A stretch of DNA of 64,000 bases. It comes from Macrocystis pyrifera. Taxonomy: Eukaryota > Sar > Phaeophyceae > Laminariales > Laminariaceae. How positions within the stretch are numbered: position 1 is the stretch's first letter; every line of letters starts with the position of its first letter. The stretch covers positions 5,421,501 to 5,485,500 of the forward strand of contig JASSKH010000023.1 in the NCBI GenBank assembly GCA_031763025.1. Reading direction: 5' to 3'. The position numbers and the translations under genes are program-made. The notes beneath the pieces were generated by a model. The model saw only the letters and a list, made by a program, of their open reading frames with translations. It did no database searches and was not told where the DNA came from. Positions 24,561 to 63,920 of this stretch are shown in pieces.

Positions 24561-24924
24561 CACTCCTCCGTCTCGATCCTAACAGACTCACACGTTGACA
24601 CCAGGATGAAGAGACGTATCCTGATGCATGTGATATCAATATTAATAGTGCTAAATAAAGCTAGAATATGCAGGAGAAGTACGGGAAGGGAACGCGAAGT
24701 TCGTAAAACAGTTGGAAACAGCTGTACCAGGTATGTAGTATTAAAAGTACAGCTGGTGACAGCAGCCAAAAAAATACTATTAGATAGTAGGGTGCTCAAG
24801 TACGACGAGTTATACTACTACTACTGCTGTACCAGGTATGTATTAAGAACAGAACTGGGAATGCACGCACCCAAAACAAATAGAGACGTGAGAAAGTTAG
24901 AACGGCAATATGAAGTACTACTAT

Positions 24925-24993
24925 GTCCCTAAATATAAGAACCGTTTGAATTAACAATTTTTCTAAAACCATTGATTATATAATGGGACAAAG
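24925..24993. mobile_element. Palindromic element M3 in LINE-C
   Basis: TGTCCCTAAATATAAGAACCG ... TTGATTATATAATGGGACA; inverted-repeat ends. Confidence 0.5.
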
Positions 24994-25488
24994 TGGTAGG
25001 GAACATGCCAAGAAAGAGGTTGACAGCCATTATGTATGGTAGTAGATATAGTTGACAGAGCTGCATGGGAGAACGTAACAAAAGGGCCAGCTGGAATAAG
25101 GTGGGACAGCGTAGTTGAGAAAGTATGGAAGGATACAGGAGGGGACCAAGAAAGTAAGAAATGATGTCCACGGCGAAGTATGGGTGGTACAAGACACGAG
25201 TATAGGAAAGAACATAAAAAAGTGAAAGGCTAGCGTTACGAAACAAGGCGAAATCGGCGAAACACTTATTAATAGATATATACAGGGGATTAGGCGAAGA
25301 GATATGAATGAAAACGTGTTTGCAGGGCCAGACGGACCTCACGAAAACACTGAAACTGCGATTTCGTGTAAGGGATCTGGACCTGCCAGAAAGAAAAAAG
25401 AGGTAACCCAGTAGTAGCCGGGAGGAGAAGGAAGCAGATGCGCAGATGTGCCCGTGTGGCAAAGCAATATAGAGTAGAACTCACGTAG

Positions 25489-25868
25489 ACTAAGTTGAGA
25501 AAAAAGTTGAGAAAATGACGAGTAGTTGAGAAAAGAAAGTCTAAGCGGCAAACTTCTTCAATTCGTAAAACAATTCAAGTCTGATAGGCTCAAAAACTAT
25601 GTACTCTTCAACAGCAACCGAACGCACATACGTACTCGTAATGAACTCGAACGAGGTACAGCGAAAACAATCGTTTGCATTGAAAGATGAAGAATCCGCG
25701 GTAAATATGTTTTTTTTTCTATAACTCCGGCTGTATCCGGCTGTAGTTGCTGTTGAGTACAGCAGTGTACAGCTTTTGAGCCTACGATCAGACTGGAATT
25801 ATTTTACGAACTGAAGAAGTTAGCCGCTCACGCTTGTTTCTCTCAACTATACTTGTCAATGTCTCAAC
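25489..25868. mobile_element. Fold-back element (380 bp) inside LINE-C
   Basis: The left arm contains AGCGGCAAACTTCTTCAATT, then AAGTCTGATAGGCTCAAAA and CTCTTCAACAGCAACC. The right arm gives their reverse complements (GTAGTTGCTGTTGAGTAC, TTTTGAGCCTACGATCAGAC, GAACTGAAGAAGTTAGCCGCT). LINE-C sequence is interrupted between GTAGAACTCAC and AGGAAGTAGGAG. Arms about 150 bp with a short AT-rich centre. Confidence 0.75.
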
Positions 25869-26220
25869 TTGCAAATCCAGTGTAGGAAGTAGGAGAATAT
25901 GAAATGTATGAGGAGGAACGGGACGTGTTAGCCGGGGGAGATGAGAGAAATACACGAATGTGACATGGAGGAGGAGTTTGGTAGACTAGATAGTAGTGAG
26001 AAAACAATCGCTATCATCCTCGAGGAGATAGATAGTGGCCACAGGCGGCGGAACAGGAAGGGGATAGAACTAGCAAAAAGTTTCTATGTAATATATGGAA
26101 ACATCGTAATGAGCGCCCAACTGTTGGAGGTGTCTTTTAACAGGAGTAGGAACGGTGCTCCGTCTCGAAAGGGATGCGTGGTCAATGGTCAAATGACTAA
26201 TGCAAGCAACGAATGAGTAC

Positions 26221-27797: not shown

Positions 27798-27824
27798 CCC
27801 CCCCCCCCCCCCCCCCCCCCCCCC
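27798..27824 (+). repeat. Poly(C) run at LINE-C 5' junction
   Basis: Twenty-seven C in a row, immediately followed by LINE-C sequence truncated inside its endonuclease domain. Confidence 0.85.
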
Positions 27825-28038
27825 TCCTGGACATAGTGGGAATGCAAGAGCCGTGGGAGAAAGAGGGGGGGGAGATAGGATGCAAAGTTGGAGAGTACGC
27901 ATGGATAGGGAAAAAGAGGAAGGGACAGAATAGCAGGAATGGAGGGGTGGGGGGCGTGGGTTCCTAGTCAAAGAATACCTGTGTCACATAGTAGAGGTGA
28001 TCTAAGACACTAAATTCGATGAAAGCATATGGATTAAG

Positions 28039-28738
28039 ATGCCAGGGGAGCGGGGAGCGAAACATTACTTCTTAGCAAACATCTATATGCCCCCAGAGTC
28101 GAAGAATACGATAGAAGATAGACAGAGGAAGTTCGAACAAGTAGCAGTAGATGTACACAAGTATAAGAGGCAAGGAAAAGTAGTACTAGTGGGAGATTAT
28201 AATTCAAGAATTGGGAAGGCAAGCAAACTGAATGACAACATTGGACAATATGGGGAAGTAACGAAGAATAAGAATGGGGAAGAGATGTTGAAGTTCCTCA
28301 AGCACAACGAGATGAAGATGTTGAACGACAGAGTACAATAGGCAGAACCGGAATGGACTAGACAGTGCGCACAAAAGGGAGAAAGCTCTATCCTTGACTT
28401 TATAGTAGTAGAAAATGGAAGTGGTAAGGACACGGAACTGCATGTATGAGCAGCGGACGTAGGAACTACGGATCACTGTCTGATACGGACAGACAGTCAA
28501 CAGACGAGAGTTGTCCAAACGTAGACGAGGTAGGAAATTGCACAGATGGAGAATAGATACACTAGACGTAAAAGAGAAACGGGAAGAGTTCCAAGAAGAG
28601 ATGACCAAAAATGCAGAGAAATTTTCCGAGCTGTTGGAAAGAATAGGTACAACAAGGAACGATGTAGAAAGGGATGATGCAGGAGCTAGGATAATAGAAG
28701 GATGGGAGCAGTTGGTTGGTCAAGACCACAGCAAGTAA
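28039..28738 (+). pseudogene. LINE-C endonuclease remnant
   Basis: Endonuclease/exonuclease/phosphatase-type motifs: ANIYMPPESKNT, then VVLVGDYNSRIGKAS (the GDxN box; Asn contacts substrate) and ILDFIVVENGSG, then TTDHCLI (the DH catalytic pair, here with Thr before Asp). Split by stops at 28339-28341 and 28446-28448. In the living family this domain nicks target DNA to prime reverse transcription. Confidence 0.8.
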
Positions 28739-29711
28739 AGTAATAGGGAAGAAGTTGACAGTATGCAACAAAGCAGTAAAATGGTGGGATGAGGAAGGGA
28801 AAGAGGCTATAAGAGCAAGGAGAAAGGCACACGCAAGGTACACATCAAGTAAAACTACGACAGGATGGGAGGAATATGCTATAGCTAGAAAGAAAGTAAA
28901 AGAGATGGTAGAGAAGAAGAAGAAAGGGATATGGAAAGACGTAGTAAATAAAACGAATGAAGACTTTGAGGGCGGGATGAAGCAGATGTGGGTAGGGATA
29001 AAAGGGATACTGGGCAAACAAGCAGGAGAGGCAGACACGGGAATAGCTACCGTAAGAGCACAGAACGGTAAATGGTTAGTAGTTCGAAGGGGAAAAAGGA
29101 AGTACTAGTAGAGCATTACCGTAAGCTAGGAACACCCACAGCCAACGAAACGTTCGACGCAGAATTCGAGAAGGAAATCAACGCCTGGGAAGAGGCGGGC
29201 GTAGATGCGCATCAGAAAGGGGGGACAGTGGTTCGGAAGGGCTACAAAGAGAGTTCACAAGGGAAGAAGTAAAGAAGTGTGTAGCTAAACTTGAGAACTG
29301 AAAGGCAGCAGGGGCAGAACACATAGTGAATGAATTTATGAAGTACGGGGGAGAAGGAATGCTTACCATGATGGTTATGTAGTATAACTGGATATGGAAA
29401 AAACGAGTACGCACCTAGGAGGTGGAGAGAAAGAGTAGTAGTAAACTTATTCAAGAAGGGAGATAAGACTTACCCGGGGAACTATAGAGGGATAACGCTA
29501 ATAAGCACAGCAGGCAGAACATTTTGTGAGATTTTGAACGTTAGAATGGGAACGATGATGGAGAAGGAAGACAAAACAAGCGAAGGGCAAGCAGGGTTTA
29601 GGCCAAACCGTAGCTGCGTAGACCATGTGTACACCTTAGGTAAGATAATCCAAGGTAGGAAAGACGCGGGACTATCAACGCACTGTTTCTTTCACAGTAT
29701 GGAGAAATGGA

Positions 29712-30392
29712 TTGTGGAAACAACTGTGGGAAATAGGAATCAGAGGAAAGGTGTGGAGAATGATGAAAAAGATGACGGAATGTGCGAGAAGTGTTGTTAT
29801 GCTGGACGGGGAAATATCGAAGTATGTTGATATTTTACGAGGAGTTACACAGGGATGTACGTTGTCTCCCAACCTATCCAAGACATATATTAACGACCTG
29901 ATAGTAGCAGTCGAAGCAGCAAGGCAGGGAATCACGGCAGGAGAAGATACGGTGTCGGGATTGATGTTTGCGGATGACTTCACGGGGATATCAGAAACAC
30001 CCGAAGGATTGCAGAAACAAATAGAGAAGGCGCTAGCATTCACTAAGAAATGGAGGGTGACGGCGAACGTCAAGAACTTCGCAGTAGATGTTTGTAACGA
30101 AGATAAGGTAAACCCGGTAAATTTTAGTTGGAAGTGGGGAGAAAATGAATGGCCGATCGTAGACCAGTATACATACCTTGGCGTAGAGATCTCAAAAGAC
30201 CGCTCTTGGGATACACATATAGCAAAAGTAATAGGAAAGGGTAAAGCACACGTAGGCAAGTTGGATGCGATCCTAACAGACTCGAACCTTGACACCAGAA
30301 CTAGGAGATGTATCCTGATGAATGTGATAGTACCAAAGCTAGAATATGCAGGAGAAGTATTTAAAGGGAACGTGAAACTCGTAAAACAGTAG
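29712..30392 (+). pseudogene. LINE-C reverse transcriptase, fingers/palm part
   Basis: Open 226-codon frame with LRGVTQGCTLSP (block B), GLMFADDFTGIS (catalytic FADD at 29967-29978) and YLGVEISKDRSW (thumb entry). The preceding block A region (29534-29711) is in another frame after GFRPNRSCVDHVYTLGKII. Ends at TAG 30390-30392; the thumb/linker continues in a different frame (30408-30794). Confidence 0.85.
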
Positions 30393-30655
30393 GAAACAAT
30401 AGTACAGATGACAGCAGCTGTCAATACAAACAATCTAAGATGCTCAAGTACGACTATTAATAGTATTACAGTGTTAAGAGCAGAACTGGGAATGCACCCA
30501 CTCAAGACGAAAAGAGATATGAGAAAGTTGAACTGGCAATATAAAGCAAGAAACATGGCAAAAAAGAAGTTGCCAGCCATAGTTGATAGAGCTGTATGGG
30601 AGAAGGTAACAAAACGGCGAGCTGGAATAAGGTGGGATGGCTTGGTTGAGAAAGG

Positions 30656-31300
30656 ATGGAAGGATATAGGGGGGAACCACGTAGAGATGGTGTCCGGCGG
30701 GAAGCTTGGGAGGTACAAGGCACAAGTAGAAGGAAGCATAGAAAGAAGGGAAAGGCTAGCATTAAGAAACAAGGTGGAATCGGGAAACGCTTAGAGATAT
30801 ACGGGGGATTGAGTAAAGGAATAGGAATGAAAACGTATTTGCACGGCCCAATGGACTTCTCGAAAACGCTGAAACTGCGGTTTCGTGTAGGTGACCTGGG
30901 CCTGTCAGAAAGAAGAAAGAGGTACACCAGTAGCCGGGAGGATGAGGAAGTAGATGCACAGATGTGCCCGTGTGGCAAAGCATTAGAGAGTAGAACTCAC
31001 ATAGTAGGAGAATGTGAAATATACAAGGAGGAACGGGATGTGTTAGAAGAAGAGACGAGAGAAATGGACGACTGTGACACGGAGGAGTTTGGTACACTAG
31101 ATAGCGAGAAAACGATCGCTATCCTACAGGAGATAGAGGGTGGCCGCAGGCGGCGAAACAGGAAGGGGATAAGATTGGCATCAATTTTCTATGTAATATA
31201 TGGAAACAACGTAATGAGCGCCCAATTGTTGGAGGTGTCTCTATTAGGAGTAGGAACGGTGCTCCGTCTCGAAAGGGATGCGTGGTCAACGGTCAAATGA
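30656..31300 (+). pseudogene. LINE-C C-terminal zinc-finger region
   Basis: The frame contains HGPMDFSKTLKLRFRVGDL, then DAQMCPCGKALESRTHIVG followed by EC: a C-x-C-x7-H-x4-C arrangement typical of the finger found C-terminal to many non-LTR reverse transcriptases. It ends about 20 codons after LLEVSLLGVGT, just before the GAGTAC terminus. Confidence 0.8.
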
Positions 31301-31324
31301 CTAAGGCAAGCAACAAATGAGTAC

Positions 31325-31325
31325 G

Positions 31326-31356
<31 letters not shown>
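31325..31356 (+). repeat. Poly(C) between two LINE-C copies
   Basis: A run of about 32 C separates the 3' terminus of one LINE-C from the truncated 5' edge of the next. Confidence 0.9.
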
Positions 31357-32276
31357 TGGAAAGGTGACAGCAGCTGAAAAAATCCTCATGTGCTCAAGTA
31401 CGGCTAGTACTACAATATTCAGAGCAGAACTGGGAATGTACCCACTCAAGACAAATAGAGACATGAGAAAGTTGAAATGACAATATAAAGTAACGAACAT
31501 GCCCAAAAAGAGATTGCCAGCCATAGTTGATAGAGCTGTATGGGAGAAAGTAACAAAAGGGCGAGCTGGAATAAGGTGGGATGGCGTGGTTGAGAAAGTA
31601 TATTGAAGGATATAGGGGGAAATCAGGAAGAGGTGATGTCCGCCGGGAAGTTTAGGAGGTACAAGGCAGAGACAGAAGAAAGGATAGAATGAAGGGAAAG
31701 GCTGGCGCCAAGAAACAAGGTGGAATCGGAAAAACATACGGGGGGATTGAGCGAAGGAATAGGAATGAAAACGTGTTTGCATGGCCCAATGGATTTCGCG
31801 CTGAAACTGCGATTTCGTGTAGGTGACCTGGACCTGCCAGAAAGAAGAAAGAGATCTACCAGTAGCCGGGAGGAGGAGGAAATAGATGCACAGATGTGCC
31901 CGTGTGGCAAAGCAATAGAGTAGAACTCACATAGTAGGAGGATGTGAAATGCACAAGGAGGAACGGGATGTGTTAGAAGAGGAGATGAGAGAAGTAGACA
32001 TGGTAGATGAGTAGATGAACGTGACATGGAGGAGTTTGATACACTAGCTAGTAGCGAGAAAGCGATCGCTATCCTAGGAGATAGATGGGGGCCACAGGCG
32101 GCCAAACAGGAAGGGGATAAGATTTTATCATACATTTTCAATGTAATACATGGAAACAACGTAGTGAGCGCCCAATTGTTGGAGGTGTCTCTATCAGGAG
32201 TAGGAACGGCGCTCTGTCTCAAAAGGGATGCGTGATCAATGGTCAAATGACTAAGTAAGGCAAGCAACAAATGAGT
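31357..32276 (+). mobile_element. LINE-C, second copy in tandem (5'-truncated)
   Basis: Starts TGGAAAGGTGACAGCAGCTG, equivalent to about 30408 of the first copy, and runs through the finger region (31892 CPCGKAIE) to GCAACAAATGAGTACG. It sits directly downstream of the first copy's poly(C) and has its own C run at 32280-32306. Confidence 0.85.
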
Positions 32277-32307
32277 ACGCCCCCCCTCACCCCCCCCCCC
32301 CCCTCCT

Positions 32308-32835: not shown

Positions 32836-34128
32836 TATCTGTCTGAGGTGGGATTTTGTATACATATATATATATTTATATAAAATAACGTCTGAGGTGT
32901 GATTTTATATATATAATGACATTAGCCAAAATAGGTATACCTACGCCTTTTGGGCCATTAAGAGGTACACTGCGCATTTTGTGCCCCGGAAAAAGCTTCC
33001 TGGCGCGGCCTGATACCCTGAAAATTGGCCTGCGCTCCATCGTACCTACGAATGCCTCAAAAGGCCAAGGTACACCTATTACGGGGGTCCATAGTTGACA
33101 GGACCTATGGCATACATAAATACCTATATATTTTCCTATTTTTACTAACAAAATTTGGTCCCGTTAACTATGGACCCCCGTAATAGTATCAGCTATTCAA
33201 CTTCCGTGTCACCTACTTCTGGCTTCAACTGCTGTACCTGTAAATGGCTCGAATGCATGATCACATGCTCGCTACTGAAATATAGACAGCAGTCGGCCGC
33301 ACCAGATGCCGGGATTGTCAACCAGCTGACCTTGGCCCGTCAGCACAAACGTCCAAAAAAAAGACTGCGGAAACAGCACGAACGCAGGTGACGCCGGAAA
33401 TAACACAGATCATCCATTTTTCTTCTGAACTTCATACCAATCCACACGTTTCCGAGCTTCTCATATGCATGATAGGAGGCGTGGCGGCGGAAGTAAAAGG
33501 CGTCGATCGATAATAGGGCAATTCACACACTAACTACGTAGACTCCTCTAGTATTGTGCTACACAAGCGTGCCGCCTCTACGTAGCTCTATCAAGAACTA
33601 GGGCACCATAAGAGCACGTGACAAGCTGAGCTTCTCGAATAAATATGAGAAGTTCGGGATACGTGGCGTGGTATGAAGTTCAGAAGAATGGATGACCTGT
33701 GTCTGTGTTGTCCCCGGCGTCACCTGCGTTCGTGCTGTTTCCGCGCAATCTTTTCGGGCGTTTGTGTTGACACAGGCCAGGTCGGCTGGTTGACAATCCC
33801 GGCATCTGGTGCGGCCGACTACACGCTGTCTGTATTTCAGTAGCGAAAAAGTGATCATTCGAGCCATTAATACTACAGGTACAGCAGTTGAAGCCAAAAG
33901 CAGGTGACACGGAAGTTGAATAGCTGATATTAATAGTAGGTGGACCTTGGCCATTTGAACCATTCGTAGGTACGATAGAGCGCTGACCAAATATCAGGGT
34001 ATCAGGCGGCGCCAGGAAGCTTTTTCCAGAGCACAATGCGCAGTGTACCTATTAATGGCCCGAAAGGCGTAGGTATACCTAGTTTTGGCTAATGCCCTAT
34101 ATATATATATAATCACACCTCAGACAGA
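32836..34128. mobile_element. Large fold-back element (about 1.3 kb, arms ~0.5 kb)
   Basis: Left arm 32836-33480 and right arm 33640-34128 are inverted copies. Termini are ATCTGTCTGAGGTG and CACCTCAGACAGAT; inner matches include TAGCCAAAATAGGTATACCT / AGGTATACCTAGTTTTGGCT and GATGCCGGGATTGTCAACCA / TGGTTGACAATCCCGGCATC. The centre is about 160 bp and non-coding. M1 sits in the left arm only. No transposase frame is visible, so it is non-autonomous. Confidence 0.8.
33079..33185. mobile_element. MITE M1, copy 8, in left arm of fold-back
   Basis: ATTACGGGGGTCCATAGTTG ... TAACTATGGACCCCCGTAATA. The right arm at about 33930-33945 is the matching empty site. Confidence 0.85.
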
Positions 34129-34936: not shown

Positions 34937-34998
34937 AAGGGGAGGAGCCTGCGTACTTATTGGTTGCTTGCCATTAGTTATTTGACCATTGAGCAGCT
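34937..34998 (-). mobile_element. LINE-C 3' tip fragment
   Basis: Minus-strand AGCTGCTCAATGGTCAAATA then GGCAAGCAACCAATAAGTAC: only the last ~60 bp of LINE-C, lying immediately downstream (in element sense) of the poly(C) of the next copy. Confidence 0.7.
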
Positions 34999-35888
34999 GG
35001 GGGCGGGCGGGGGGGGGCGTACTCATTTGTTGCTTGCCTTAGTCGTTTGACCATTGACCACGCATCCCTTTCAAGACGGAGCGCCGTTCCTACTCCTATT
35101 AGAGCCACCTCCAACAATTGGGCGCTCATTACGTTGTTTCCATGTATTACATAGAAAATTGATGCCAATCTTATCCCCTTCCTCTTTCGCCGCCTGTGAC
35201 CACCATCTATCTCCTGTAGGATAGCGATCGTTTTCTCGCTGCTATCTAGTGTACCAAACTCCTCCGTGTCACAGTCGTCCATTTCTCTCATCTCTTCTTC
35301 TAACACATCCCGTTCCTCCTTGTATACTTCACATTACTCCTACTATGTGAGCTCTACTCTCTATTGCTTTGCCACACGGGCACATCTGTGCATCTATTTC
35401 CTCCTCCTCCCGGCTACTGGTATATCTCTTTCTTCTTTCTGGCAGGTCCAAGTCCCTTGCACGAAATCGCAGTTTCAGCGTTTTCGCGAAGTCCATTGGG
35501 CCGTGCAAACACGTTTTCACTCCTATTCCTTCGCTCAATCCCCCGTATATATCTAAGTGTTTCCCGATTCCAACTTGTTTCTTGGCGCCAGCCTTTCCCT
35601 TCATTCTATCCTTTCTTCTACTTCTGCCTTGTACCTCCCAAACGTCCCGGCGGACACCATCTCTTCTTGGTTTCCTCCTACATCCTTCAATATACTTTCT
35701 CAACCACGCCATCCCACCTTATTCCAGCTCGCCCTTTTGTTACCTTCTCCCATACAGCTCTATCAACTGTGGCTGGCAACCTCTTTTTTGGCATGTTCCT
35801 TACTTTACATTGTCATTCCAACTTTCTCATGTCTCTATTATTCTTGAGTGGGTACATTCCCAGTTCTGCTCTTAATAATGTACTACTA

Positions 35889-35990
35889 ATACGGAGGACC
35901 CATTTTAATAGGACCAAATATTGTTAGTAAAAATGTGGAAATATATAGGTTTCTATGTGTACCGTAGGTCCTATTTACTATGGCCCCCCG
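35889..35990. mobile_element. MITE M1, copy 9, in LINE-C
   Basis: TAATACGGAGGACCCATTTT ... TACTATGGCCCCCCGG, inserted between TGTACTAC and AGTAGTCGTACTTGAGC of LINE-C; slightly eroded ends. Confidence 0.75.
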
Positions 35991-36126
35991 GAGTAGTCGT
36001 ACTTGAGCAACTGAGGATTTGTTTTTAGCCGCTGTCATCTGTACTCTGTTTCCAGCTGTTTTACGAGTTTCGCGTTCCCTTCCCATACTTTTACTGCATA
36101 TTCTAGCTTTGGTGCTATCACATTCG

Positions 36127-36494
36127 AGGCGTTCTACGGTAGAGGTTCACCCTAAATTTTCTGAGGCTCCTCACTTGACCTTAAGGAGCCCCACACCTCA
36201 CCCGAAAACTGACTTCAGCAAAAATCAAATTGCATCCCGATAAATATTCCCATGGTCTTAAGTATACAATTACGTCATTTTTCGAAACATGATTGATATT
36301 CGGACGATTTTGGGTGAAGGGGCCCCGTCATTCAGAAAACTGTAGTTTAGCGGAAATATGCTATTACGGGGGTCCATAGTCAATAGGACCTATGGCATAC
36401 ATAAACACCTATATATTTACCTATTTTTACGAACAATATTCGGTCCTATTTACTATGGTCCCCCGTAACACCTGTCTCGTAGAATGCGTCGCTC
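36127..36494. mobile_element. MITE family M5 in LINE-C
   Basis: Terminus GAGGCGTTCTACGGTAGAGG at the left; the matching right end TCTCGTAGAATGCGTC follows the nested M1. About 260 bp without M1. Second copy at 60037-60292 in the other orientation. It interrupts LINE-C between ATCACATTC and GAGGATACATCTC. Confidence 0.75.
36362..36468. mobile_element. MITE M1, copy 10, in M5
   Basis: TATTACGGGGGTCCATAGTC ... TACTATGGTCCCCCGTAA, between GCGGAAATATGC and ACCTGTCTCGTAG of M5. Confidence 0.85.
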
Positions 36495-36747
36495 ACGAGG
36501 ATACATCTCTTAATCCTGGTGTCAAGGTGCGAGTCTGTTGGGATCGCATCCATTTTGCCTACGTGTGATTTTACCTTTTCCTATTACTTTTGCTATGTGT
36601 GCATCCCAAGAGCAGTATTTTGAGATATCTACGCCAAAGGTACGTATACTGGTCTACGATCGGCAATCCGTCTTCTCCCCGCTTCCAACTGAAACTGATC
36701 GGGTTCACCTTGTCTTCGTTACAAACAACTACTGCGCATTTCTTGAC

Positions 36748-36759
36748 GGGGGGGGGGGG
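36748..36759 (-). repeat. Poly(G) (poly(C) on minus) between D and LINE-C
   Basis: Twelve G separate the 3' end of element D1 from the truncated 5' edge of LINE-C, both read on the minus strand. Confidence 0.85.
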
Positions 36760-37276
36760 TTGTACTCATTTTCAGACACGGTCGTAGTCGTATGACCGTG
36801 GACCCTCGCCTCCCTACAATGCGGGGACGGAGCACGTCGGGTTTTCACCGACCAGGCAGACATTGCTTGCACCAGGCGCGAAGCGCCGTGAGGTGCTGGG
36901 CGAGTCGCATGAAGGGTGAGCTGCATCCCACTAAGAACCGCTCTAGAGGCGGATTGTCTTGCGTATGGATGACAGCATCAATGAGTTAGTTTAATTTCCG
37001 GTGTGGCTACTTCCAGAGACAGCACTGGGTTTACTACGTAACTGCCTCGTGGGTGCCTCACCATACACATACTTAACGTGATACATCATCCCCCTTATGC
37101 GGAGTAAGGGTTCTCCCCGCACAAAAAATGATTTAACTCGACCGCCAGCCGTGGTAAAAGCCAAAAAAAAAAAAAAAACCCACTATACCCTGGCTGTCTA
37201 GCTCACCGTGAGAGGCGTGTTTTAGAGCGTCGTCGCCAAACGACGCCAATCCAACCTCTATATACCAGGTATATAA
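36760..37276 (-). mobile_element. Element D, copy 1 (about 0.5 kb, non-coding)
   Basis: Minus-sense order: TA-rich 5' edge, GGxTTGGCGTCGxTTGGC, internal T run then a GCGGTCG-type segment, GCTGTCTCTGGAAGTxGC, GCCTCxxxAGCGGTTCTTAG, GCTTCGCGCxTGGTGCAAGC, TCGGTGAAAACCCGAC, TGTAGGGAxGCGAGGGTC, and terminus ATGAGTACA + poly(C). No ORF is conserved between copies. It has no obvious tRNA-like head. Confidence 0.8.

Positions 37277-37341
<65 letters not shown>
37277..37341 (-). repeat. Poly(G) of about 65, LINE-C tail
   Basis: Uninterrupted homopolymer; on the minus strand it is the poly(C) following GAGTAC of the LINE-C fragment and preceding D1. Confidence 0.9.
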
Positions 37342-37342
<1 letters not shown>

Positions 37343-37409
37343 ACTCATTTGTTGCTTGCCTTAGTCATTTGACCATTGACCACGCATCCCTTTCGAGACG
37401 GAGCATATA
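37342..37409 (-). mobile_element. LINE-C 3' tip fragment
   Basis: Only the last ~65 bp of LINE-C (GCTCCGTCTCGAAAGGGATG to ACAAATGAGTAC on minus) lies between two poly(C) tracts. Confidence 0.85.
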
Positions 37410-37418
37410 GGGGGGGGG

Positions 37419-37926
37419 TGTACATAACATCGTGCATAGCCGTGGTCGTATGACCATAAGCCCTCGTATCCCTACAATGCCGGGCCAGAGCACGTCGGGT
37501 TTTCACCGACCAGGCAGACATTGCTTGCACCAAGCGCGAAGCGCCGTGAGGTGTCCGGCGAGTAGAATGAAGGGTGAGCTGCATCCTACTAAGAACCGCT
37601 TGTGAGGCGGAGTTGCATACGGACGACAGCTTCAATGACGTAATTTATTTTCCGGTGCGGCCAGTTCCAGAGACAGCAATGGGGGGGTACTACGTAGCTG
37701 CCTCTTGGGTGCCTTACCGTGAACACTACGTGATACGACCATTCCCCTTGTGCGGAGTAAAGGTTCTCCCCCAGGTACAAATGATCTGTAACTCATTCGC
37801 CAGTTGTGACCTACCGCCAAAAAAAAAAAAAGGTACTCTGGTTGTCTACTGTAGTTGACTTAGTGAGCGGCATGTTTTACAGTGTCGTTGCCAACCGACG
37901 CCAAACCAACCTATACAAAATAAATA
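37419..37926 (-). mobile_element. Element D, copy 2
   Basis: Same order of blocks as D1 (AAACCCGACGTGCTCTGGCC, GCTTCGCGCTTGGTGCAAGC, GCTGTCTCTGGAACTGGC), 3' terminus TATGTACACC + poly(C), 5' edge CTATTTATTTTGTATAGGTT next to the 21-nt G run. Confidence 0.85.
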
Positions 37927-37947
37927 GGGGGGGGGGGGGGGGGGGGG
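37927..37947 (-). repeat. Poly(G) between LINE-C and D2
   Basis: Twenty-one G; minus-strand poly(C) tail of the LINE-C copy to the right. Confidence 0.9.
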
Positions 37948-38482
37948 TGCTAATTTGTTGCTCGCCTTAGTCATTCAACCATTGACCATGCATCCCCTTC
38001 GAGACGGAGCACCATTCCTACAGCTATTACGGGGAACCATAGTAAATAGGACCTAATATTGTTAGTAAAAACAGGGAAATATAAGGTTTTTGTGTGTACC
38101 GTAGGTCCTATTTACTCTGGACCTCCGTAATAGTAGAGACACCTCCAACAGTTGGGCGCTCATTTCGTTTGTTTCCATATATTGCATAGGAAATTTTTTG
38201 CTGGTATTTCCCCCCTCCTGTTTGGCCGCCTGTGGCCACCATCTATCTCCTAGGATAGCGACCGTTCTCGCTGCTATCTAGTGTACCAAACTCCTGCATG
38301 TCACTTTCGTCTGTCTCGCTCATCTCCTCTTCCAACACATCCCGTTCCTCCTTGTGCACGTCACATTCTCTTACTATGTGACTTCTATTCTATATTGCTC
38401 TGCCGCACGGCGGGTACATCTGCGCATCTACTTCCTCCTCCTCCCGGCTACTGGCATACCTCTTATTCTTTTTGTCAGGTGG
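37948..38482 (-). mobile_element. LINE-C copy (minus), 5'-truncated, with M1
   Basis: Terminus GCAACAAATTAGCAC + poly(C); truncated near the LPERRKR-equivalent region at 38482, beside a further G-rich stretch (38493-38501). MITE M1 at 38026-38132. Confidence 0.85.
38026..38132. mobile_element. MITE M1, copy 11, in LINE-C
   Basis: TATTACGGGGAACCATAGTA ... TTACTCTGGACCTCCGTAATA, inserted 5' of GAGACACCTCCAAC of LINE-C. Confidence 0.85.
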
Positions 38483-38940
38483 AGGCGGGATTGGGGGGGG
38501 GTCAAGGTGGGGTTGAAACCGACTTTAGGTGTGGGGTATCGGTAGATGTTATCGAAGATATTGGATTCATCAGGGTTCTGTCAACGATATCATCGAAGCA
38601 CTATTGCATGAGGTGATTAAGGGGAGGGTGGGAGGGGGGGGGGGAGATGGAAGGTTGGGGTGGGGGGTGGGGGATGGGGGGAGGTGTAGGGTCGGGGGGA
38701 GATGGAGGGGGGGTGGACATGGTAGACGAGTGTTTATGAAGTTATGGGGGGTGGCTGGGAGGGGGAGGGGGGGAGCTCGGAGGAGGAGGGGGGGTGGCGG
38801 GGTGTGTTGGGTGTGTGTGTTGGGGGTGTGTGTTGGGGGAGGGAGGCGGGGAAGGAAGGGGGAGTGGACGGGGAGGGGGGAGTGGAGACGCGCATGTGTG
38901 TGGAGGAAGCAATAGTGGAGGGGGCAAGAGTCGAGAGAGT
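38483..38940. repeat. G-rich low-complexity tract
   Basis: GGGGGTGG/GGAGGGGG-type sequence without a fixed unit. The open frames on either strand reflect composition. It links LINE-C (left) and D3 (right) and may be an eroded poly(G). Confidence 0.6.
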
Positions 38941-38951
38941 GGGGGGGGGGG

Positions 38952-39484
38952 TGTACTCGATAAGAGAGATGTACTCGATCTCATGCATGGCCGTAGCCGT
39001 ATGACCATAGACCCTCGCATCCCTACAATACCGGAACGGAGCATGTCGGGTTTTCACCTACCAGGCAGACATTGCTTGCACCAAGCGCGAAGCGCCGTGA
39101 GGTGTCCGGCGAGTCGCATGAAGGGTGAGCTGTATCCTACTAAGAACCGCTTTTGAGGCGGACTTGCGTATGGATGACAGCTTCAATGAGTTAGTTTAAT
39201 TTCCGGTGTAGCCACTTCCAGAGACAGCAATGGGGTTACTATGTAGCTGCCTCTTGGGTGCCTTACCATAAACACACTACGTGATACTATCAATTCCCTT
39301 GTGCAGAGTAAAGGTTAATGATCTAACTCGACGACCAGCTGTGGGCGACCGCCAAAAAAAAAAAAAAAAAAAAAAAAAAACGGTATCCTGGATGTCTAGC
39401 TCACGTAGTGAGCGGCATGTTTTACAGTGTCGTTGCCAACCGACGCCAACCCAACCAATATAATATATATATATATATATAATA
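38952..39484 (-). mobile_element. Element D, copy 3 (near full length)
   Basis: About 533 bp. The minus-sense terminus has two GAGTACA motifs (GATCGAGTACATCTCTCTTA, then TCGAGTACACC + poly(C)). The internal A/T run of 27 is at 39354-39380. The 5' edge is TATATATA followed by another C run (39485-39496 as G). Best copy together with 46767-47273. Confidence 0.85.
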
Positions 39485-39496
39485 GGGGGGGGGGGG

Positions 39497-40612: not shown

Positions 40613-41446
40613 TTGTTGTTTTCTTCACATTAAACCGTTCTTTCTACGCGTCGACATCCAGCACAACCAGTGTCCGTGCCGATTCTTCAAACCTAGAGAG
40701 ATACAAGTTCTGTGGTCACAAAGCTACGCCACAGAGATACTACGTTGCCACGTATGTAATGCAATGCCATGTCATCATACTGCGTACGACAGGCACGACA
40801 TACACATTCCATGACTTAGAGAAACAAAAACGAAACAAAGAGAAAAAACAAAAACAAAAACAAAGACAATTCGAAAGAGAAAAGAAACAAAAAAGAAACT
40901 AAAATATACCTGGTATATGTATATACTTCAGTATAGCAACAAACCATCGTACCCCCACGTAGGGGACGTGGCAGACTCTTGAAAGGAACGAGCTGGAAAA
41001 AAAAAGAAAAAGAAGAAAACACCACTAGTCGTCAACAGAGTAAGACTAAGAACCAAGGTAAAAATAACAGTCAAACCAAACAAAGCACAAGGCATGCTCC
41101 AGGTAGCGGCAGCAGTTTATGGTACGAGTAGCACAGCCAGGGTCTCCCTGCTGGCCCGCCTGGTACCTTGCTACCCTGTCTGCCACCATCGTCCAGCGTT
41201 CGTCAACTATGCCCGGCCCCTCGGCGTCAGACAGTATGAAACAAGCAGAGCAGGCTCGTCATCCACCCACGCCACACGACTCCTTCAATACTCGTAAGGC
41301 TTATCAATCGGAAAAAAAAGGAAGAGAAATGAAAATCACATAGGGTCACCGCAAAGAAGACAATAAAATGAAATAAAAATAAACAAAAACAACAGGAAGA
41401 CAAAGGAAGACCACGTTCGAACCAGCTGCACCAGTTGGTGGTACGA
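40609..41446 (-). mobile_element. 5'-truncated LINE-B inserted in antisense into LINE-A
   Basis: Minus-sense: starts in the LINE-B 3'UTR (ACCAACTGGTGCAGCTGGTT, compare 13048-13070), includes GGCGTGGGTGGATGACGAGC and ends GGTTTAATGTGAAGAAAACA + (ACA)n. It splits the endonuclease box segment from VLGAYGRD. The tail unit is AAC, unlike AC in LINE-A. Confidence 0.85.
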
Positions 41447-42538
41447 GATAGAAGGGTGCGGTGATGATGAATGTAGGGTGCTCGGAGCATACGGACGAGA
41501 TGTTCGTAGTGATAACGGCAAACGGCGTTTGTCGTTCGCTACCAGTTGCAAGCTAGCGCTCACCAACACATTTTTCAGCACGCGCAAGGGCGGAATATCG
41601 CATACATACAACGGCACCAGCCTGAATGATCGTAAGCGAATCGACTACATCCTAACTCGTCAAGTCCACCGACCTAGAGTACATAATGTTACAGTCGTCC
41701 CACAGCCCCCACCACCTGCTAAGGCTGATTCAGACCATAACATCGTGTACATCAAGGCCCGACTTAGTGGTCACTTTTCGTCTAACCGAAGATTGCTGAA
41801 ACCCCCAAAACGCCGAGAATTCGACAGGCAGCTTTTCTTATCCGATGGAGAGCGTCGACACCGAATAGTCGAGAGGGTCGTTTCCACTCTTAACCAACCT
41901 ACCCAGCCTCGTAACACGTCTGGCATGGTTGAGTTTTTCACCACAACTGTCATGAATGCTGTTGAGAAAGAGGTGCCACCTCCACCACGTCGCCACCACC
42001 GAAACGGTTGGTGTGAGACCCCCGAAACGGTGGCCGCTTTCAAAGTAGCATGGACAGCGAGGGAGGATGCGAGACAGCTCTTGCGTGTCTACCCCCGAGA
42101 TAGTACAGCGTGGAAGAAGTTGAGATCCGCCTGTGCGAATCTGCAGGAAGTAGTCGCCGCAGGAGTCAATGCGTATTTTGAAGAGTACCTCGCTGAAACC
42201 GAGAAATTCCTCGCGAGTTCCGATCAACGAGGGTTCTACAAGCACCTGAAGAGTACGGTAGGGTTGCAAGGTACGAAAGCGAGGAGTGAACAGTTTATCA
42301 TGGACGAGGATGGCACGCTGTTGCGGGATCAAGCGCGAATTCGTGAAAGATGGGCGGGGCACTACCACAAACTATTGAAAACGAAATCGCTGAAACTTGA
42401 CCCCACGATCATCGACCTAGTGCCACCACGACCGCTGAAACTATCCCTTGGAAATGAACCATCCATTGACGAGATGATGGAAGCAGTGAAGGGTATGTCA
42501 AACTGGAAAGCCGTTGGACCAGATGGTCTCCCCCGGTC
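41447..42538 (+). pseudogene. LINE-A endonuclease C-part and linker
   Basis: Open frame GAYGRDVRSDNGKRRLSFAT, ALTNTFFSTRKGG, RIDYILTRQ and ADSDHNIVY (the SDH catalytic box of the endonuclease), then a 250-residue linker with helical blocks up to [21 protein letters not shown], which begins the reverse transcriptase. The frame is lost at about 42535 by one missing base and ends at TGA 42546-42548. Confidence 0.85.
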
Positions 42539-44272
42539 GAAGTACTGAAACTTGACCACACCGCTGTCGTGCAGTATTTTCACAGTATCCTTGTTAACGT
42601 TTGGGTAACGGGAGAAGTCCCCCAGCAATGGAAAGATGCGATCATAAAAACCCTTCATAAAAAGAAGGATAGAACTGATTGCAACAACTACAGAGGTATT
42701 TCGCTTGTTGCTCACGCAGGCAAGGTGTTGCTGAAAATCGTTGCGTCCCGTCTAAGCAGCTACTGCGAGACCGAGCATATACTCCCTGAAGAACAGTGCG
42801 GCTTCCGCCCCGCACGGTCAACAGTCGATATGCTGTTTGTCGTGCGCCGGTTGCAGCAGCTCGGGCGGCAGAAGAAAATTCCCCTGTACATGTGCTTCAT
42901 CGACATGCAGAAAGCGTACGACTCTGTCGACCGAGAACTGTTGTGGGAGGTACTCACACGCCTTGGTGTACCAACCAAGATGCTCACAATCATTCGCAAT
43001 TTTCACGAAGGCATGCGGGCTCGCGTGCGTGCGGATGACGGTGAACACTCGGACTGGTTCAATGTAACCCAGGGGCTGCGGCAAGGCTGCGTACTATCGC
43101 CGTTACTGTCCAACGTGTTCTTCGCCGCTGCGATACACATCGTGCTGGTACGCCTCAGCAAAGACGAATGCATCGTAAGGGATTTGGTTCATCTCGAAGA
43201 GGACAGGGTTGTCGGAAAAGAGGAACCGTTGGCATGCGTGCAAAGGGCTGTGTGGGGCATGTTGTATGCAGACGATGCAGGAATAGTCTCGAAGTCGGCG
43301 GAAGGCCTTGCAAGAATGATGACAGTCATCGTGACTGTCTTCGAAGCAGTAGGTCTCACGGTATCCGAGAAGAAGACAGAGACGATGCTCCTACGAACAC
43401 CGGATCAGACGTTTACCACCTCACCGCTCGCGATCGAAGCTGTAGGCCAAAAGTATAAACAGACGACCCAGTTTTTGTACCTAGGAGGCATTATCCACGA
43501 GAACGCTGACCTCTCCTTCGAAATCGAGCGACGAATCCGTCTGATGCGGGCATGCCTCAAACGGTATGGTCCGGAACTGTACGATAGGACGAACGCACCG
43601 CTTAGTCTGAAAGTCCGGATGCTGAAGGCCGAGGTGATTGAGACCTTGCTGTACGGTTGCGTGACGTGGACCCTCAATGCGGACCACTTCGCCAAGCTTC
43701 GATCAGCCCACCACGAAGTCCTTCTGCGAGTCATTGGTTTCCAGCGCCGACTACGCACCGACCACACCACCCTCTCGTATGCGAAGGCGCTCAGGATAAC
43801 ACGATGCGAAAGTATCGAAACGACCATCCGTAAACGGCGACTCTTCTTTGCGGGGGCTGCGGTGCGGCAACACGAGGGGCGATTGCTCAGTCGGTTGATG
43901 TTCGGGACGATCGCTTGTGGGGGGAGCCCGAAACCAGGCGGGCAGCCCAAGACTTGGCCTAGGGCCATTGCTGAGGACCTTAGAGTGTTCAAAGCCACCG
44001 AGGGATCAAGGGAAGACTCCCCCTTAGTCTTTGGAGTTGGGACCGCACTGTGGCCCACTGCAGCAAAACAGACGGGAAAGTGGTACCGGGGAATCCTCGA
44101 AGCAGCTGAACAGTTCATGGGCAGGTGGCACGAGGCTGAGGCAAAGCTGAGTAGACAGCGCCGTGCATCCGCTGCAGGTAGTGTTAGAGGGAATGGGGGA
44201 GGGGTAACAGCAGGAGGGGTAGAGGGAACACCGTACAAGTGTATGGGGGCAGGGGGGGAACAGGAGGAGTAG
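42539..44272 (+). CDS. LINE-A reverse transcriptase and C-terminal region
   Basis: 567 uninterrupted codons from the first in-frame GTG/ATG region to TAG at 44270. Motifs: [25 protein letters not shown]-type entry, [29 protein letters not shown] (block A Asp), [11 protein letters not shown] (block B), [16 protein letters not shown] (catalytic YADD at 43264-43275), [22 protein letters not shown] (thumb), then [19 protein letters not shown] and [11 protein letters not shown]. It copies element RNA at a nicked target site. The intact frame suggests that this copy decayed recently. It lacks the CxC finger of LINE-C. Confidence 0.9.
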
Positions 44273-44940
44273 AAAGGAAACCGCGGTAGAAGAGAGTAGC
44301 AGAGAGACCGCAGATAGGGTAGCAAGGTACCAGGCCGACTAATAGGTTGGACTTTTCTTTGCTACTCGTACCGCCAACTGCTGCGGCCGTTCGGTATGCA
44401 TTTTGATTTTTTTCCCTTCTTATCCTTATGAAAGAAGTACTACATAGTGGGTGGGTGACGAGCGTATTTTGGACCACTCACTATTGCTCTTTTTACTTAG
44501 TTAAGTGTTCACCGGGATGCATAGTCCCCTTTTTCCTTCTCGTATCTTTCCCCTTGCACGTCCCTTTTGGCTCATGCTCGGGGTAAGTATGTATGTGTCT
44601 GAGCTTTGGCTTCCCATTTTATTTATATATTTGGGATTCTTCTCCTTTTCTTTTTCTTTTTCTTTTTCTTGTTCTTTTTCGGTTTTTTTTTTTTTCGTTG
44701 CTTCTCTTTCTTCATGGTGTATTTTGGTTGCTGGCGTATGTATGTATATTGTGTCGGCCGCACCTAGTGCGAAGGCATGGTATTACGTAGGCTATTAATG
44801 CATTACGGTGTGTTATCTCTGTGTCGTAGTCTGTGACCACAGAGCTCGTATCTTTCTAGGGCGAAGAATCAGCACGGACACTGGGCTTGCTGGATGTCGA
44901 CGAGTAGAAGAACGGTTTAATGTGAAGAACACACACACAC

Positions 44941-46345: not shown

Positions 46346-46430
46346 CCCGGAAAAAATTACTACGGAGTAGTACCAGGTACCTGGTACGTAGTAAGAAGCA
46401 GGCGGCTGTTTCACCCCCCCCCCTCCCCTC

Positions 46431-46552
46431 TAAATTGGTGCAAGCAATGTCTGCCTGGTCGGTGAAAACCCGACATGCTCCGTCCCGGCATTGTAGGGAT
46501 GCGAGGGTCTATCGGTCATACGACTACGGCCATGATGCATGATAATGAGTGC
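46431..46552 (+). mobile_element. Element D, copy 4 (3' part)
   Basis: Starts TTGGTGCAAGCAATGTCTGC after a C-rich tract, ends ATGATAATGAGTGCA + poly(C). Confidence 0.8.
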
Positions 46553-46570
46553 ACCCCCCCCCCCCTCTCT

Positions 46571-46744
46571 AAAGCGGTTCTTAGTAGCATGCAGCTCACC
46601 CTTCATGCGACTCGCCCAACATCTCACGATGCTTCGCGCTTGGTGCAATGTCTGCCTGGTCGGTGAAAACCCGACGCGCTCCGTCCCGGCATTGTAGGGA
46701 TGCCATCATATGACTACGGCCATGCATGATAATGAAATGAGTAA
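46571..46744 (+). mobile_element. Element D, copy 5 (3' part), in tandem
   Basis: Begins AAGCGGTTCTTAGTAGCATG right after the C-rich tail of copy 4, ends GATAATGAAATGAGTAA + C run of 16 (46745-46760). Confidence 0.85.
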
Positions 46745-46766
46745 CCCCCCCCCCCCCCCCTCCCCC

Positions 46767-47273
46767 GATATATATTATATATGGGTCGGGTTGGCGTCGG
46801 TTGGCAACGACACTGTAAAACATGCCGCTCACTACGTGACCTAGACATCCAGGGTACCGTTTTTTTTTTTTTTTTTTTTTTTTTGGCGGTCGCCCACAGC
46901 GGGTTGTCGAGTGAGATCATTTGTGCGAAGTAAAGAACCTTTACTCTGCACAAGAGAATTGATCGTATCACGTAGTGTTCAAGGCACCCAAGAGGCAGTT
47001 ACATAGTACTCTCATTGCTGTCTCTGGAAGTGGCTACACCGGAAATTAAACTAACTCATTGAGGCTGTCATCCATATGCAAGTCCGCCTCACAAGCGGTT
47101 CTTCGTAGGATGCAGCTCACCCTTCATGCGACTCGCCGGACACCTCACGGCGCTTCGCGCTTGGTGCAAGCATGTCTGCCTGGTCGGTGAAAACCCGACA
47201 TGCTCCGTCCCAGCACATGGTCATACGGCTACGGCCATGCATGAGATCGAGTACATCTCTCCCATCGAGTACA
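46767..47273 (+). mobile_element. Element D, copy 6 (near full length), in tandem
   Basis: Follows the C tail of copy 5 with GATATATATTATATATGGG, then GTTGGCGTCGGTTGGCAACG, T run 46860-46884, and ends ATCGAGTACACC + C run. Third unit of a head-to-tail trio. Confidence 0.85.
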
Positions 47274-47281
47274 CCCCCCCC

Positions 47282-50010: not shown

Positions 50011-50179
50011 TACACCACAGCCCCAAAGACAAGCAAACAGTATTATTACAATACAGCATACTCGTACATCTCCAGTGCAGTGTCGGCGTCTCTCTTGCTT
50101 CGCGTTTTCCGCGCCGCATTCTTCGCGAGACGGACCAATCATGGAACACCCCCCCCCCAACCCCTCGTCCCCTTTCCCC

Positions 50180-50277
50180 AGCGATGTCTGCCTGGTGGGT
50201 GAAAAACCGACATGCTCCGTCCTGGCATCGTAGGGATGCGAGGGTCTACGGTCGTATGACTACGACCATGCATGACA
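50180..50277 (+). mobile_element. Element D fragment, copy 7
   Basis: GCGATGTCTGCCTGGTGGGT through CGACCATGCATGACATCC; a 3' fragment downstream of C-rich sequence (50150-50180), tail eroded. Confidence 0.7.
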
Positions 50278-50724
50278 TCCCTCCCCCTTCACGCCACCGA
50301 AAATACTAGGAAACTCCGGTTTTTTACCCCTTTTGATTGACCGCCTACACTAAAACTAGCAAATTAAGATGAGGACAAAAGAGGTCTAGCCGAGCTCCAA
50401 AAGACGAGGATCCTGCGATGAGAGTTTTTGCAACCCCAACCGACTCAACCCCACCCCATCCCACAGCCCAGCCTACTTTCTAAGCGCTTCAAACAGCGCG
50501 TCTCTTATCAGCACAATCAGTATCAAGTACCGATTCGATGTAACACCGGACGTTTGAATTTTTTTCCGCCACCAACCACCACCACTTATGCACCAGACCC
50601 TCCACCACAAGACACAAACGAAACGGGCGAAAAAAAAACGGAGAGGGGGGGGGGGGGGGGGGGGCAACACAGACCGGTCCGTTGTTGGCCCTCCAATCTG
50701 TACGCCCACACCCTCGCTGTGACC

Positions 50725-52250: not shown

Positions 52251-52734
52251 CACCTCCTTAACGTAGTCGCATGTAGTCCCGCGGTACCTTTTTCTCTTCT
52301 ATCCTATCAACTTTTTCGGTTTTAATCCTCCTCGGGAATCGCACCCGCCACGTTTTCGGGGGGAGGGGGGAGCAAACTATCAATGGTATCAATACTCGGA
52401 ATCAGAGTTGAACCGTTCTTCGGGGTTTGGTTGGTCGCTCACTCGAGGTCGGGTGGCATCTCTTGTAAATCGAAGCCCTTTATATCGATGGGAAAACATG
52501 GGATACGAATGAGGAGGAGGAGGAGGAGGAGGAGGAGGAGGAGGGGGGCATCATCCACAATAAGGACAACACCCCAACACCACCAACAACAATCTCATGT
52601 GAGCAATGAAGTCGTGGACCCTCCTCCCCCCCTCCCACCCCCCCCCCCCCCCCCCCCCACCCTTGCCCCCCTCTCCCGGAGCACTCAGCACAGCTATAGC
52701 GCCGAACGGTGCTCGTTCAAGGGAGCCCCTTATC

Positions 52735-53080
52735 TGAGGCAAGACATGAGGCAAGCCATGAGGCAAGCCATGAGGCAAGACATGAGGCAAAGCCATGAGG
52801 CAAGCCATGAGGCAAGACATGAGGCAAGACATGAGGCAAGACATGAGGCAAGCCATGAGGCAAGCCATGAGGCAAGCCATGAGGCAAGCCATGAGGCAAG
52901 CCATGAGGCAAGCCATGAAGCAAGCCATGAGGCAAGCCATGAGGCAAGCCATGAGGCAAGCCATGAGGCAAGCCATGAGGCAAGCCATGAGGCAAGCCAT
53001 GAGGCAAGCCATGAGGCAAGCCATGAGGCAAGCCATGAGGCAAGCCATGAGGCAAGCCATGAGGCAAGCCATGCATACAC
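52735..53080. repeat. 12-bp minisatellite (ATGAGGCAAGCC)n, about 28 units
   Basis: Unit ATGAGGCAAGCC with rare variants (GAC for GCC, one AAG for AGG). Because 12 is a multiple of three, five of six frames are stop-free (MRQA, EASH on plus; MACL, WLAS, GLPH on minus), which creates long false ORFs. Decayed units continue to about 53240 (CAAGCCxxxxC-type words). No splice site or codon bias favours any frame. Confidence 0.9.
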
Positions 53081-63250: not shown

Positions 63251-63294
63251 GCATGTGGAAACCCCCCCCCCCCCCCTCCCCCCCCCCCCCCCCC

Positions 63295-63543
63295 ACACCA
63301 GAAATTAAAATCAATTCATTGATGCTGTCATCCATATGCAAGAAAATCCGCCTCAGAAGCGGTTCTTTGTAGGATGCAGCTCACCCTTCATGCAACTCGC
63401 CGGACACCTCACGGCGCTTCGCGCTTGGTGCAAGTAATGTCTGCCTGGTCGGTGAAAGCCCGACATGCTCCGTCCCGGCATTGTAGGGATGCGAGGGTCT
63501 ATGGTCATACGACTACGGCCACGCATGATAATGAGTACGTCCT
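63295..63543 (+). mobile_element. Element D, copy 8 (5'-truncated)
   Basis: Starts ACCAGAAATTAAAATCAATT right after C runs (63262-63294) and ends CATGATAATGAGTACGTCC + C12. Confidence 0.85.
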
Positions 63544-63556
63544 GCCCCCCCCCCCC

Positions 63557-63704
63557 AAGAGATGTATCCTGATGAATGTGGTAATACCATAGCTAGAATA
63601 TGCAGGAGAAGTATGGGAAGGGAAGGGCAAAGTTCGTGAAACAGCTGGAAACAGCACGAGCGAGAGCAGCTAGTGAGAAACTACTAAGATGCTCAGGTAC
63701 GACT
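63557..63704 (+). mobile_element. LINE-C fragment after D copy 8
   Basis: AAGAGATGTATCCTGATGAA onward matches 30303-30445 of the main LINE-C. It begins directly at the poly(C) of element D and is interrupted at 63705 by M1. Confidence 0.85.
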
Positions 63705-63920
63705 ATTGCGGGGGACCATAGTAAGTAGGACCTACGGTGCGCACAAAAACCTATATATTTACCTATTTTTACCATTACGGGGGGTCCATAGTTAAGAGGA
63801 CCTATGGTATACGTAAAAACCTATATATTTACCTATTTTTACTAACAACATTTGGTTCTATTTACTATGCTCCCCCGTGATAACCGTATTTGGCCCTATT
63901 CCCTGTGGTCCCCCGTAATA
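63705..63920. mobile_element. MITE M1, copy 18, split by another M1
   Basis: Left part TTGCGGGGGACCATAGTAAG to ACCTATTTTTAC (63773); right part GTATTTGGCCCTATTCCCTG to CCCCCGTAATA (63885-63920). Confidence 0.85.
63774..63883. mobile_element. MITE M1, copy 19, nested in copy 18
   Basis: ATTACGGGGGGTCCATAGTT ... TACTATGCTCCCCCGTGAT; complete unit inside the AT-rich middle of copy 18. Confidence 0.85.

Follow-up and report, generated by a model that had tools for sequence, protein, structure and literature searches.

Introduction

L1 and Alu insert at A/T-rich sites, the A-tails of older Alus included, and pairs are known in which a short interspersed nuclear element (SINE) shares the 3′ end of a long interspersed nuclear element (LINE). 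Microsatellite-specific LINEs have examples in the R1 and Tx1 clades, and the tail of the Zepp LINEs is poly(A). In two reports (PMC8226300, PMC3446292), Zepp of Chlorella and Coccomyxa and ZeppL of Chlamydomonas, members of the L1 clade, are described as forming tandem arrays by nested insertion, made up mostly of 5′-truncated 3′ ends, with one cluster per chromosome in Coccomyxa. A third report (PMC4640811) describes microsatellite-specific insertion by retrotransposons without long terminal repeats (non-LTR), namely Togen at (TG)n and some HERO families. Here we analyse a 64,000-nucleotide (nt) window from the brown alga Macrocystis pyrifera (contig JASSKH010000023.1; G000:C204:5421501-5485500 in our numbering) in which a LINE, LINE-C, and a SINE-like element, D, stand in arrays joined by runs of C. 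In the window and in a sample of the genome, most copies of both families have a C-tract within 30 nt upstream, and none has a G-tract there.

Results

D and LINE-C copies follow C-tracts

A first search of an assembly of 537,376,219 bases in 223 contigs listed 6,091 candidate sites for D; for the 3′ part of LINE-C it listed 3,941. The best 40 of each were scored. Individual copies were then located by BLAST, with two D copies of the window (D1 and D3) and LINE-C 27825-31325 as queries, in a sample that consisted of the window, 57 loci outside it (60 minus three that fall inside), 20 random 3-kb stretches and three extra stretches at LINE 5′ ends. A copy was scored as following a C-tract if a 12-nt stretch with at least 9 C lay no more than 30 nt 5′ of it on its sense strand. 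Copies with less than 30 nt of flank were left out (3/108 D, 9/75 LINE-C), and a 44-nt LINE-C tip at 34952 fell below the BLAST cut-off length.

By this score a C-tract precedes 84 of the 105 D copies and 44 of the 66 LINE-C copies, or 128/171 together, against 0/171 for G-tracts; A-tracts precede two copies of each family and T-tracts none. C-tracts were found at 1.55% of random positions (60 kb of randomly placed genome) and at 2.88% of random positions in the window. A relaxed score (6 of 8 bases) passed 91/105 D and 52/66 LINE-C copies, compared with 6.96% of random positions. Near-full-length D seed copies gave 28/29, the sole failure being the seed in L002 (29/30 with one extra chained copy), and D neighbours within the seed loci gave 45/59. 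For LINE-C the seeds gave 15/21 and their neighbours in the same loci 17/29. In the window, C-tracts stand 5′ of 7/8 D copies (8/8 by the relaxed score) and 7/7 LINE-C copies, and three extra LINE-C 5′ ends, fetched in search of full-length copies, stand after C9, C20 and C17. Another LINE family, LB (query 41367-44400), had a C-tract in 0/14 rows and a G-tract in 1/14, six of the rows coming from one locus. The preliminary description of this DNA had proposed that the elements integrate preferentially into poly(C), to be checked by comparing the 30 bp flanking all copies with random expectation; the comparison, made on a sample of copies, bears the proposal out, with C-tracts far above the random level. 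Insertion into one type of sequence appears to be a strong preference, not strict confinement. In the random 60 kb, only 5 of 21 C-tracts of at least 8 adjoin a recognised D or LINE-C copy on the same strand, and unoccupied tracts are therefore common.

Layout of the arrays in the window

The order of D copies and LINE-C pieces first described for the minus strand at 34937-39496, their single orientation and the C-runs at their junctions were all confirmed. Other details needed correction: D3 does not adjoin the LINE-C piece that comes next, since ~460 nt of C/T-rich and unassigned sequence follow the D3 tail; several tracts are impure; and LINE-C pieces are interrupted. Read in the sense direction, the features of the minus-strand array are as follows.

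39485..39496, minus strand: C12 tract in front of D3
38952..39484, minus strand: D3, near-full-length SINE-like element of the subfamily ending ATCGAGTACATCTCT..ATCGAGTAC
38941..38951, minus strand: C11 tail of D3
37948..38479, minus strand: LINE-C 3′ piece, 5′ truncated, with an insert resembling a miniature inverted-repeat transposable element (MITE) at about 38030-38130
37927..37947, minus strand: C21, both the tail of this LINE-C piece and the tract in front of D2
37419..37926, minus strand: D2
37410..37418, minus strand: C9 tail of D2
37342..37405, minus strand: LINE-C tip of ~64 nt, beginning with the block that it has in common with the 3′ end of D
37277..37341, minus strand: C65 tract, with the LINE-C tip on one side and D1 on the other
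36760..37276, minus strand: D1, near-full-length SINE-like element, used as a genome-search query
36748..36759, minus strand: C12 tail of D1
35018..36747, minus strand: LINE-C 3′ piece with two inserts
34996..35017, minus strand: C-rich tail of the preceding piece, C9 plus GCCCGCCCCC
34952..34995, minus strand: LINE-C tip, followed by more C-rich sequence

The same pattern of tracts and elements occurs on the plus strand at five other places in the window (24574-26220, 27798-32303, 46414-47281, 50150-50290 and 63262-63707).

24574..26220, plus strand: diverged LINE-C copy with impure C-rich tracts on both sides
27798..27824, plus strand: C27 tract preceding the longest LINE-C copy
27825..31325, plus strand: longest LINE-C copy of the window, starting within the apparent endonuclease region and including the reverse transcriptase (RT); frames broken
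31326..31356, plus strand: C31 tail of the longest copy, followed by the second LINE-C copy
31357..32279, plus strand: second LINE-C copy, with (C)CTGGAAA on either side, a likely duplication
32280..32303, plus strand: C-rich tail of the second copy
46414..47281, plus strand: three D copies with C12 and C16 between them, C10 in front and C8 behind
50180..50279, plus strand: truncated D copy with C-rich tracts on both sides
63262..63707, plus strand: C-tract, truncated D, C12 and a LINE-C fragment (63559-63707) that lacks its 3′ end and C tail

MITE-like inserts with ends resembling GGGGGACCATAGTAAATAGGACC lie at 38030-38130, 35892-35993, 36126-36497 and 33084-33187, in LINE-C pieces or elsewhere in the window.

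C-tracts appear to have been present before insertion

Copies without a recognised upstream element also follow C-tracts (38/49 D, 18/29 LINE-C); they were defined by the absence of any such element over 90 nt and of a GAGTAC-like tip over 110 nt. In addition, some LINE-C copies have the target-site duplications of a LINE, in the form C(k)+X, where C(k) belongs to the tract and X to the bases beyond it: C8TCTAGATTA in L003, C9TATCAATA in L026, CCCAGACTGTCT in L046, CCCCGTACCACC in L039 and CCTGGAAA around the window copy at 31357-32279. Matches of at least 5 nt beyond the tract were found in 5 of 46 LINE-C copies, compared with a mean of 0.88 and a maximum of 4.1 in 200 shuffled pairings. In L003 and L026 the repeated bases extend into an older D copy, and the newer LINE-C therefore seems to have entered the tract in front of that D. 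Similarly, in the window array at 46414..47281 the first D (46435) seems to have entered the tract that precedes the second; CTCTAAA flanks it on either side.

The copies without an upstream element, the C(k)+X duplications and the repeats that run into older D copies indicate that the C-tract preceded the insertion. The three resolved cases (L003, L026 and window 46435) likewise indicate that arrays grew by insertion into a shared tract, and they modify the earlier view that arrays grow at the tail: in each, the newer element entered the tract in front of the older one. The preliminary description had counted the elements' own tails among the targets; the flanks of copies without an upstream element refine the probable target to C-tracts in general, element tails being one kind.

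The C tail appears to be part of the element

Among copies extending to the 3′ end of the query, 90/98 of D and 59/64 of LINE-C have a C-tract immediately behind them on the 3′ side. Many copies of both families end in GAGTAC or near variants, followed by C's, and among copies with a run of at least 5 near the end the run has a median length of 17 for LINE-C (63 copies) and of 11 for D (93 copies). In L046 the tail has 17 C's, against three in the duplicated target, and in L039 19 against four. A D copy in L002 has 18 nt (about 21 with one indel) repeated on both sides and still carries a tail of nine C's; most simply, this D lies inside another D, at a site without a long C-run, the alternative being an independent truncated D behind the tail. 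In these single cases the C tail appears to belong to the element and not only to the target. The RNA might gain its C's when the tail is transcribed, through slippage or by addition.

D shares the 3′ end of LINE-C

The final ~66 nt of LINE-C, from TGCTCCGTC onward, can be aligned with ~73 nt at the very 3′ end of D. Seven of 12 D/LINE-C tail pairs scored above all 2,000 single-base shuffles, and in another two pairs only one or two shuffles did as well; the highest pair score is 52, and the shuffle maximum is 25. This homology, absent from the preliminary description, is a new result, and it makes D a SINE-like partner with a 3′-terminal ~70 nt homologous to that of LINE-C, as in tail-sharing SINEs and their LINEs. 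D is ~515 nt long and is represented by 41 near-full-length copies, 32 of the D1 type and 9 of the D3 type. They differ by 1.6-8.0% from the majority of their own type (38/41 at 5.0% or less), and this low divergence suggests a fairly recent spread.

All 41 copies contain an internal T-run of at least 6. Such a run is expected to stop RNA polymerase III. As to a small-RNA head, no Rfam model reached its gathering score in the window, nor was a transfer RNA (tRNA) found there, and no promoter scan was run. Two other candidate features were rejected. A twister-sister ribozyme match (17.4 bits in D1, 13.9 in the copy at 63 kb, none in D3; gathering score 34) was treated as chance. A stable 3′ hairpin for RT recognition was not favoured by folding, three of four folds being no better than shuffles (z -0.26, -0.63 and 0.31; D1 z -1.81).

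LINE-C has the constant 3′ end and variable 5′ truncation of a LINE. Four tips of ~65 nt begin exactly at the shared block (position 3436), at 37342-37405 in the window, L002:1307-1372, L008:932-997 and L059:2181-2246. Eleven of 55 LINE-C 5′ starts fall within 3425-3445, a peak of uncertain size, as the BLAST cut-off hides much shorter tips. We infer from these starts that the shared block could act as a movable 3′ module, and a D ancestor may have gained it when a LINE-C tip landed at a short internal CCC. Elsewhere, the LINE-C of L081 (about 3323-3670; sense, reverse-complement) has an internal ~120 nt directly duplicated at its 5′ end, a pattern that a jump during reverse transcription might leave.

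LINE-C proteins

The window encodes a LINE-type RT at 29649-30392 (Pfam RVT_1, 3e-10) with profile matches to R2 and L1 chains. Upstream, a piece weakly matching Exo_endo_phos_2 gives LINE-C the look of an apurinic/apyrimidinic endonuclease (APE) type element, and near its C-terminus the copy at 27825..31325 carries what we take to be a motif of the CxCG..H..C type. Named relatives of the RT among the best 120 of 205 matches all come from the brown alga Ectocarpus, save one from a bacterial metagenome-assembled genome (MAG). No relatives of the elements were found in collections of prokaryote and viral contigs.

The LINE-C RT is 88% identical to P0001, a protein named from a Hyphomicrobiales MAG. 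P0001 is probably algal DNA in a bacterial bin.

Proposed mechanism and alternatives

We think it probable that LINE-C is a LINE of the APE type, that G-tracts prime its poly(C)-tailed RNA in target-primed reverse transcription (TPRT), and that D is a non-autonomous partner. LINE-C would be an APE-type non-LTR retrotransposon, and D would use its machinery through the homologous 3′-terminal ~70 nt. Both RNAs would finish in GAGTAC followed by a C run. In a tract resembling a C/G homopolymer the endonuclease would nick the G strand, and the G-ended primer so exposed would anneal to the C tail and start reverse transcription. The second strand would be cut inside the tract or a few bases past it, and the cDNA, often truncated, would be linked to the tract's 5′ portion. 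The product would be an insertion between C-tracts whose sense strand is the C strand, with a fresh C-tract left behind; reuse of that tract would then generate head-to-tail arrays. This is the orientation to be expected of TPRT if nicking falls on the G strand and a C tail anneals to the primer; none of the 171 copies is reversed.

The data bear directly on the two-sided flanking, the orientation, the duplications in a few LINE-C copies, the long tails of single cases, the shared tail, the RT similarity and the weak endonuclease similarity. We infer the G-strand nick, its position, the pairing of tail and primer, and the mobilisation of D by LINE-C proteins. The account is well supported for the flanks and moderately for the mechanism.

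Several observations weigh against it. The C criterion is failed by 21/105 D and 22/66 LINE-C 5′ flanks, and either targeting is strong without being strict or boundaries have been misread in old or split copies. Since only the best 40 candidates were scored, the seed copies are those closest to the queries. Random and extra loci give a lower share with a C-tract (D 3/8, LINE-C 5/9). D shows no excess of matching bases beyond the tract (at least 5 nt in 3/79 copies, against 3.51 when shuffled), duplications within a pure C-run being invisible to such a comparison. A looser search for duplications separated true from mismatched pairs poorly, and the test anchored beyond the tract was used instead. 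Three of the 12 D/LINE-C tail comparisons are unremarkable (p 0.03, 0.09 and 0.27; single-base shuffles). The endonuclease match (E 4e-4) is below the Pfam curated cut-off and comes from a broken copy, and no intact LINE-C was present among the copies examined, the three further stretches all being 5′ truncated.

The weak endonuclease match leaves room for an explanation, unlikely in our view, in which the enzyme makes no choice of target: unstable poly(G)/poly(C) tracts (G-quadruplexes) would break, and LINE-C cDNA would be primed at the breaks or joined to them. Such capture would account for 5′ starts that merge with the tract (tips beginning CCGTC), which resemble microhomology joining, and for L081, where part of the LINE is directly duplicated close to the 5′ end. 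The duplications in L003, L026, L039, L046 and the window, however, resemble the products of staggered cuts. The fixed orientation and the contrast between C-tracts and G-tracts also speak against capture, though taken alone they would equally fit a C-tailed RNA priming at breaks.

Considerably less probable is that the 5′ C-tract was never a target, having been added at insertion by non-templated synthesis or slippage, or having been co-transcribed as the end of a neighbour in an array that moves as a unit. That most copies have C-tracts on both sides and that an array neighbour is often another D or LINE-C copy would be expected on such a view. In the duplication cases, however, the order is C(k)X|element: target bases X separate the tract from the element, whose end therefore does not carry the C's. 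In addition, many of the tracts on the 5′ side are impure, copies without a recognised upstream element follow C-tracts as well, and truncation points differ between neighbours.

An assembly artefact, with repeats collapsed or misjoined at homopolymers, is scarcely credible: long homopolymers do assemble badly and C65 is extreme, but junctions of the same type recur dozens of times, on many contigs and between flanks that are unrelated, misjoins do not make matching bases on both sides of single insertions, and the published giant kelp assembly (537 MB in 35 scaffolds and 188 contigs, N50 13,669,674; PMC10498591) rests on PacBio reads with a mean length of 15.8 kb, at ~100x, from a haploid gametophyte. 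These points lessen the concern without dispelling it, and how long the homopolymers are exactly is still uncertain.

Comparison with described systems

LINE-C and D resemble Zepp in that their arrays arise by insertion into their own copies. They differ in being dispersed, at separate places on many contigs and several on one contig, in carrying a tail of C where that of Zepp is poly(A), and in using C-tracts outside recognised elements as well. If C-tracts are targeted as we propose, Zepp-like arrays would be a by-product of that targeting, and array growth at an element's own tail would not be special to poly(A). Like Togen and HERO, the kelp elements insert into a simple repeat that is present in many copies; unlike them, they use a C homopolymer and bear a matching tail. 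The Togen and HERO groups have a restriction-like endonuclease, whereas LINE-C, by a weak match, looks APE-type.

With L1 and Alu the kelp elements would have in common an RNA whose homopolymer tail can anneal to the target strand once it is nicked, machinery that serves an autonomous element and its non-autonomous partner alike, and tandem pairs formed by insertion at tails. The kelp pair differs in using C/G instead of A/T, and in the share of D seed copies that follow a C-tract (28/29, as above). With tail-sharing SINEs, D has in common a 3′ end held with its LINE; it departs from them in its internal T-run, and the window gave neither an Rfam match at gathering score nor a tRNA.

A literature search with most subscription papers outside its coverage found, among the titles listed, none on a LINE or SINE that targets poly(C), which does not establish absence from print; nor did those titles include the combination of a C-homopolymer target with a C tail common to a LINE and a SINE-like element. 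If true, the proposed mechanism would carry over to C/G what the A-tail and T-primer do in L1 and Alu, and would give a natural test of tail/primer pairing against endonuclease preference in target choice. The target would be simple, self-renewing and open to synthesis, and it would account for the placement of D and LINE-C repeats in the genome. Evenly balanced, in our judgement, is the broader idea that the tail serves as an address: the pairing of the poly(C) RNA tail with nicked G-tracts would largely set the target, and the pair would spread its own landing sites and so shape the poly(C/G) landscape of the kelp genome.

Other sequence in the window

Positions 52700-53250 of the window hold a tandem repeat with open frames on both strands, which read as MRQA or SHEA repeats.

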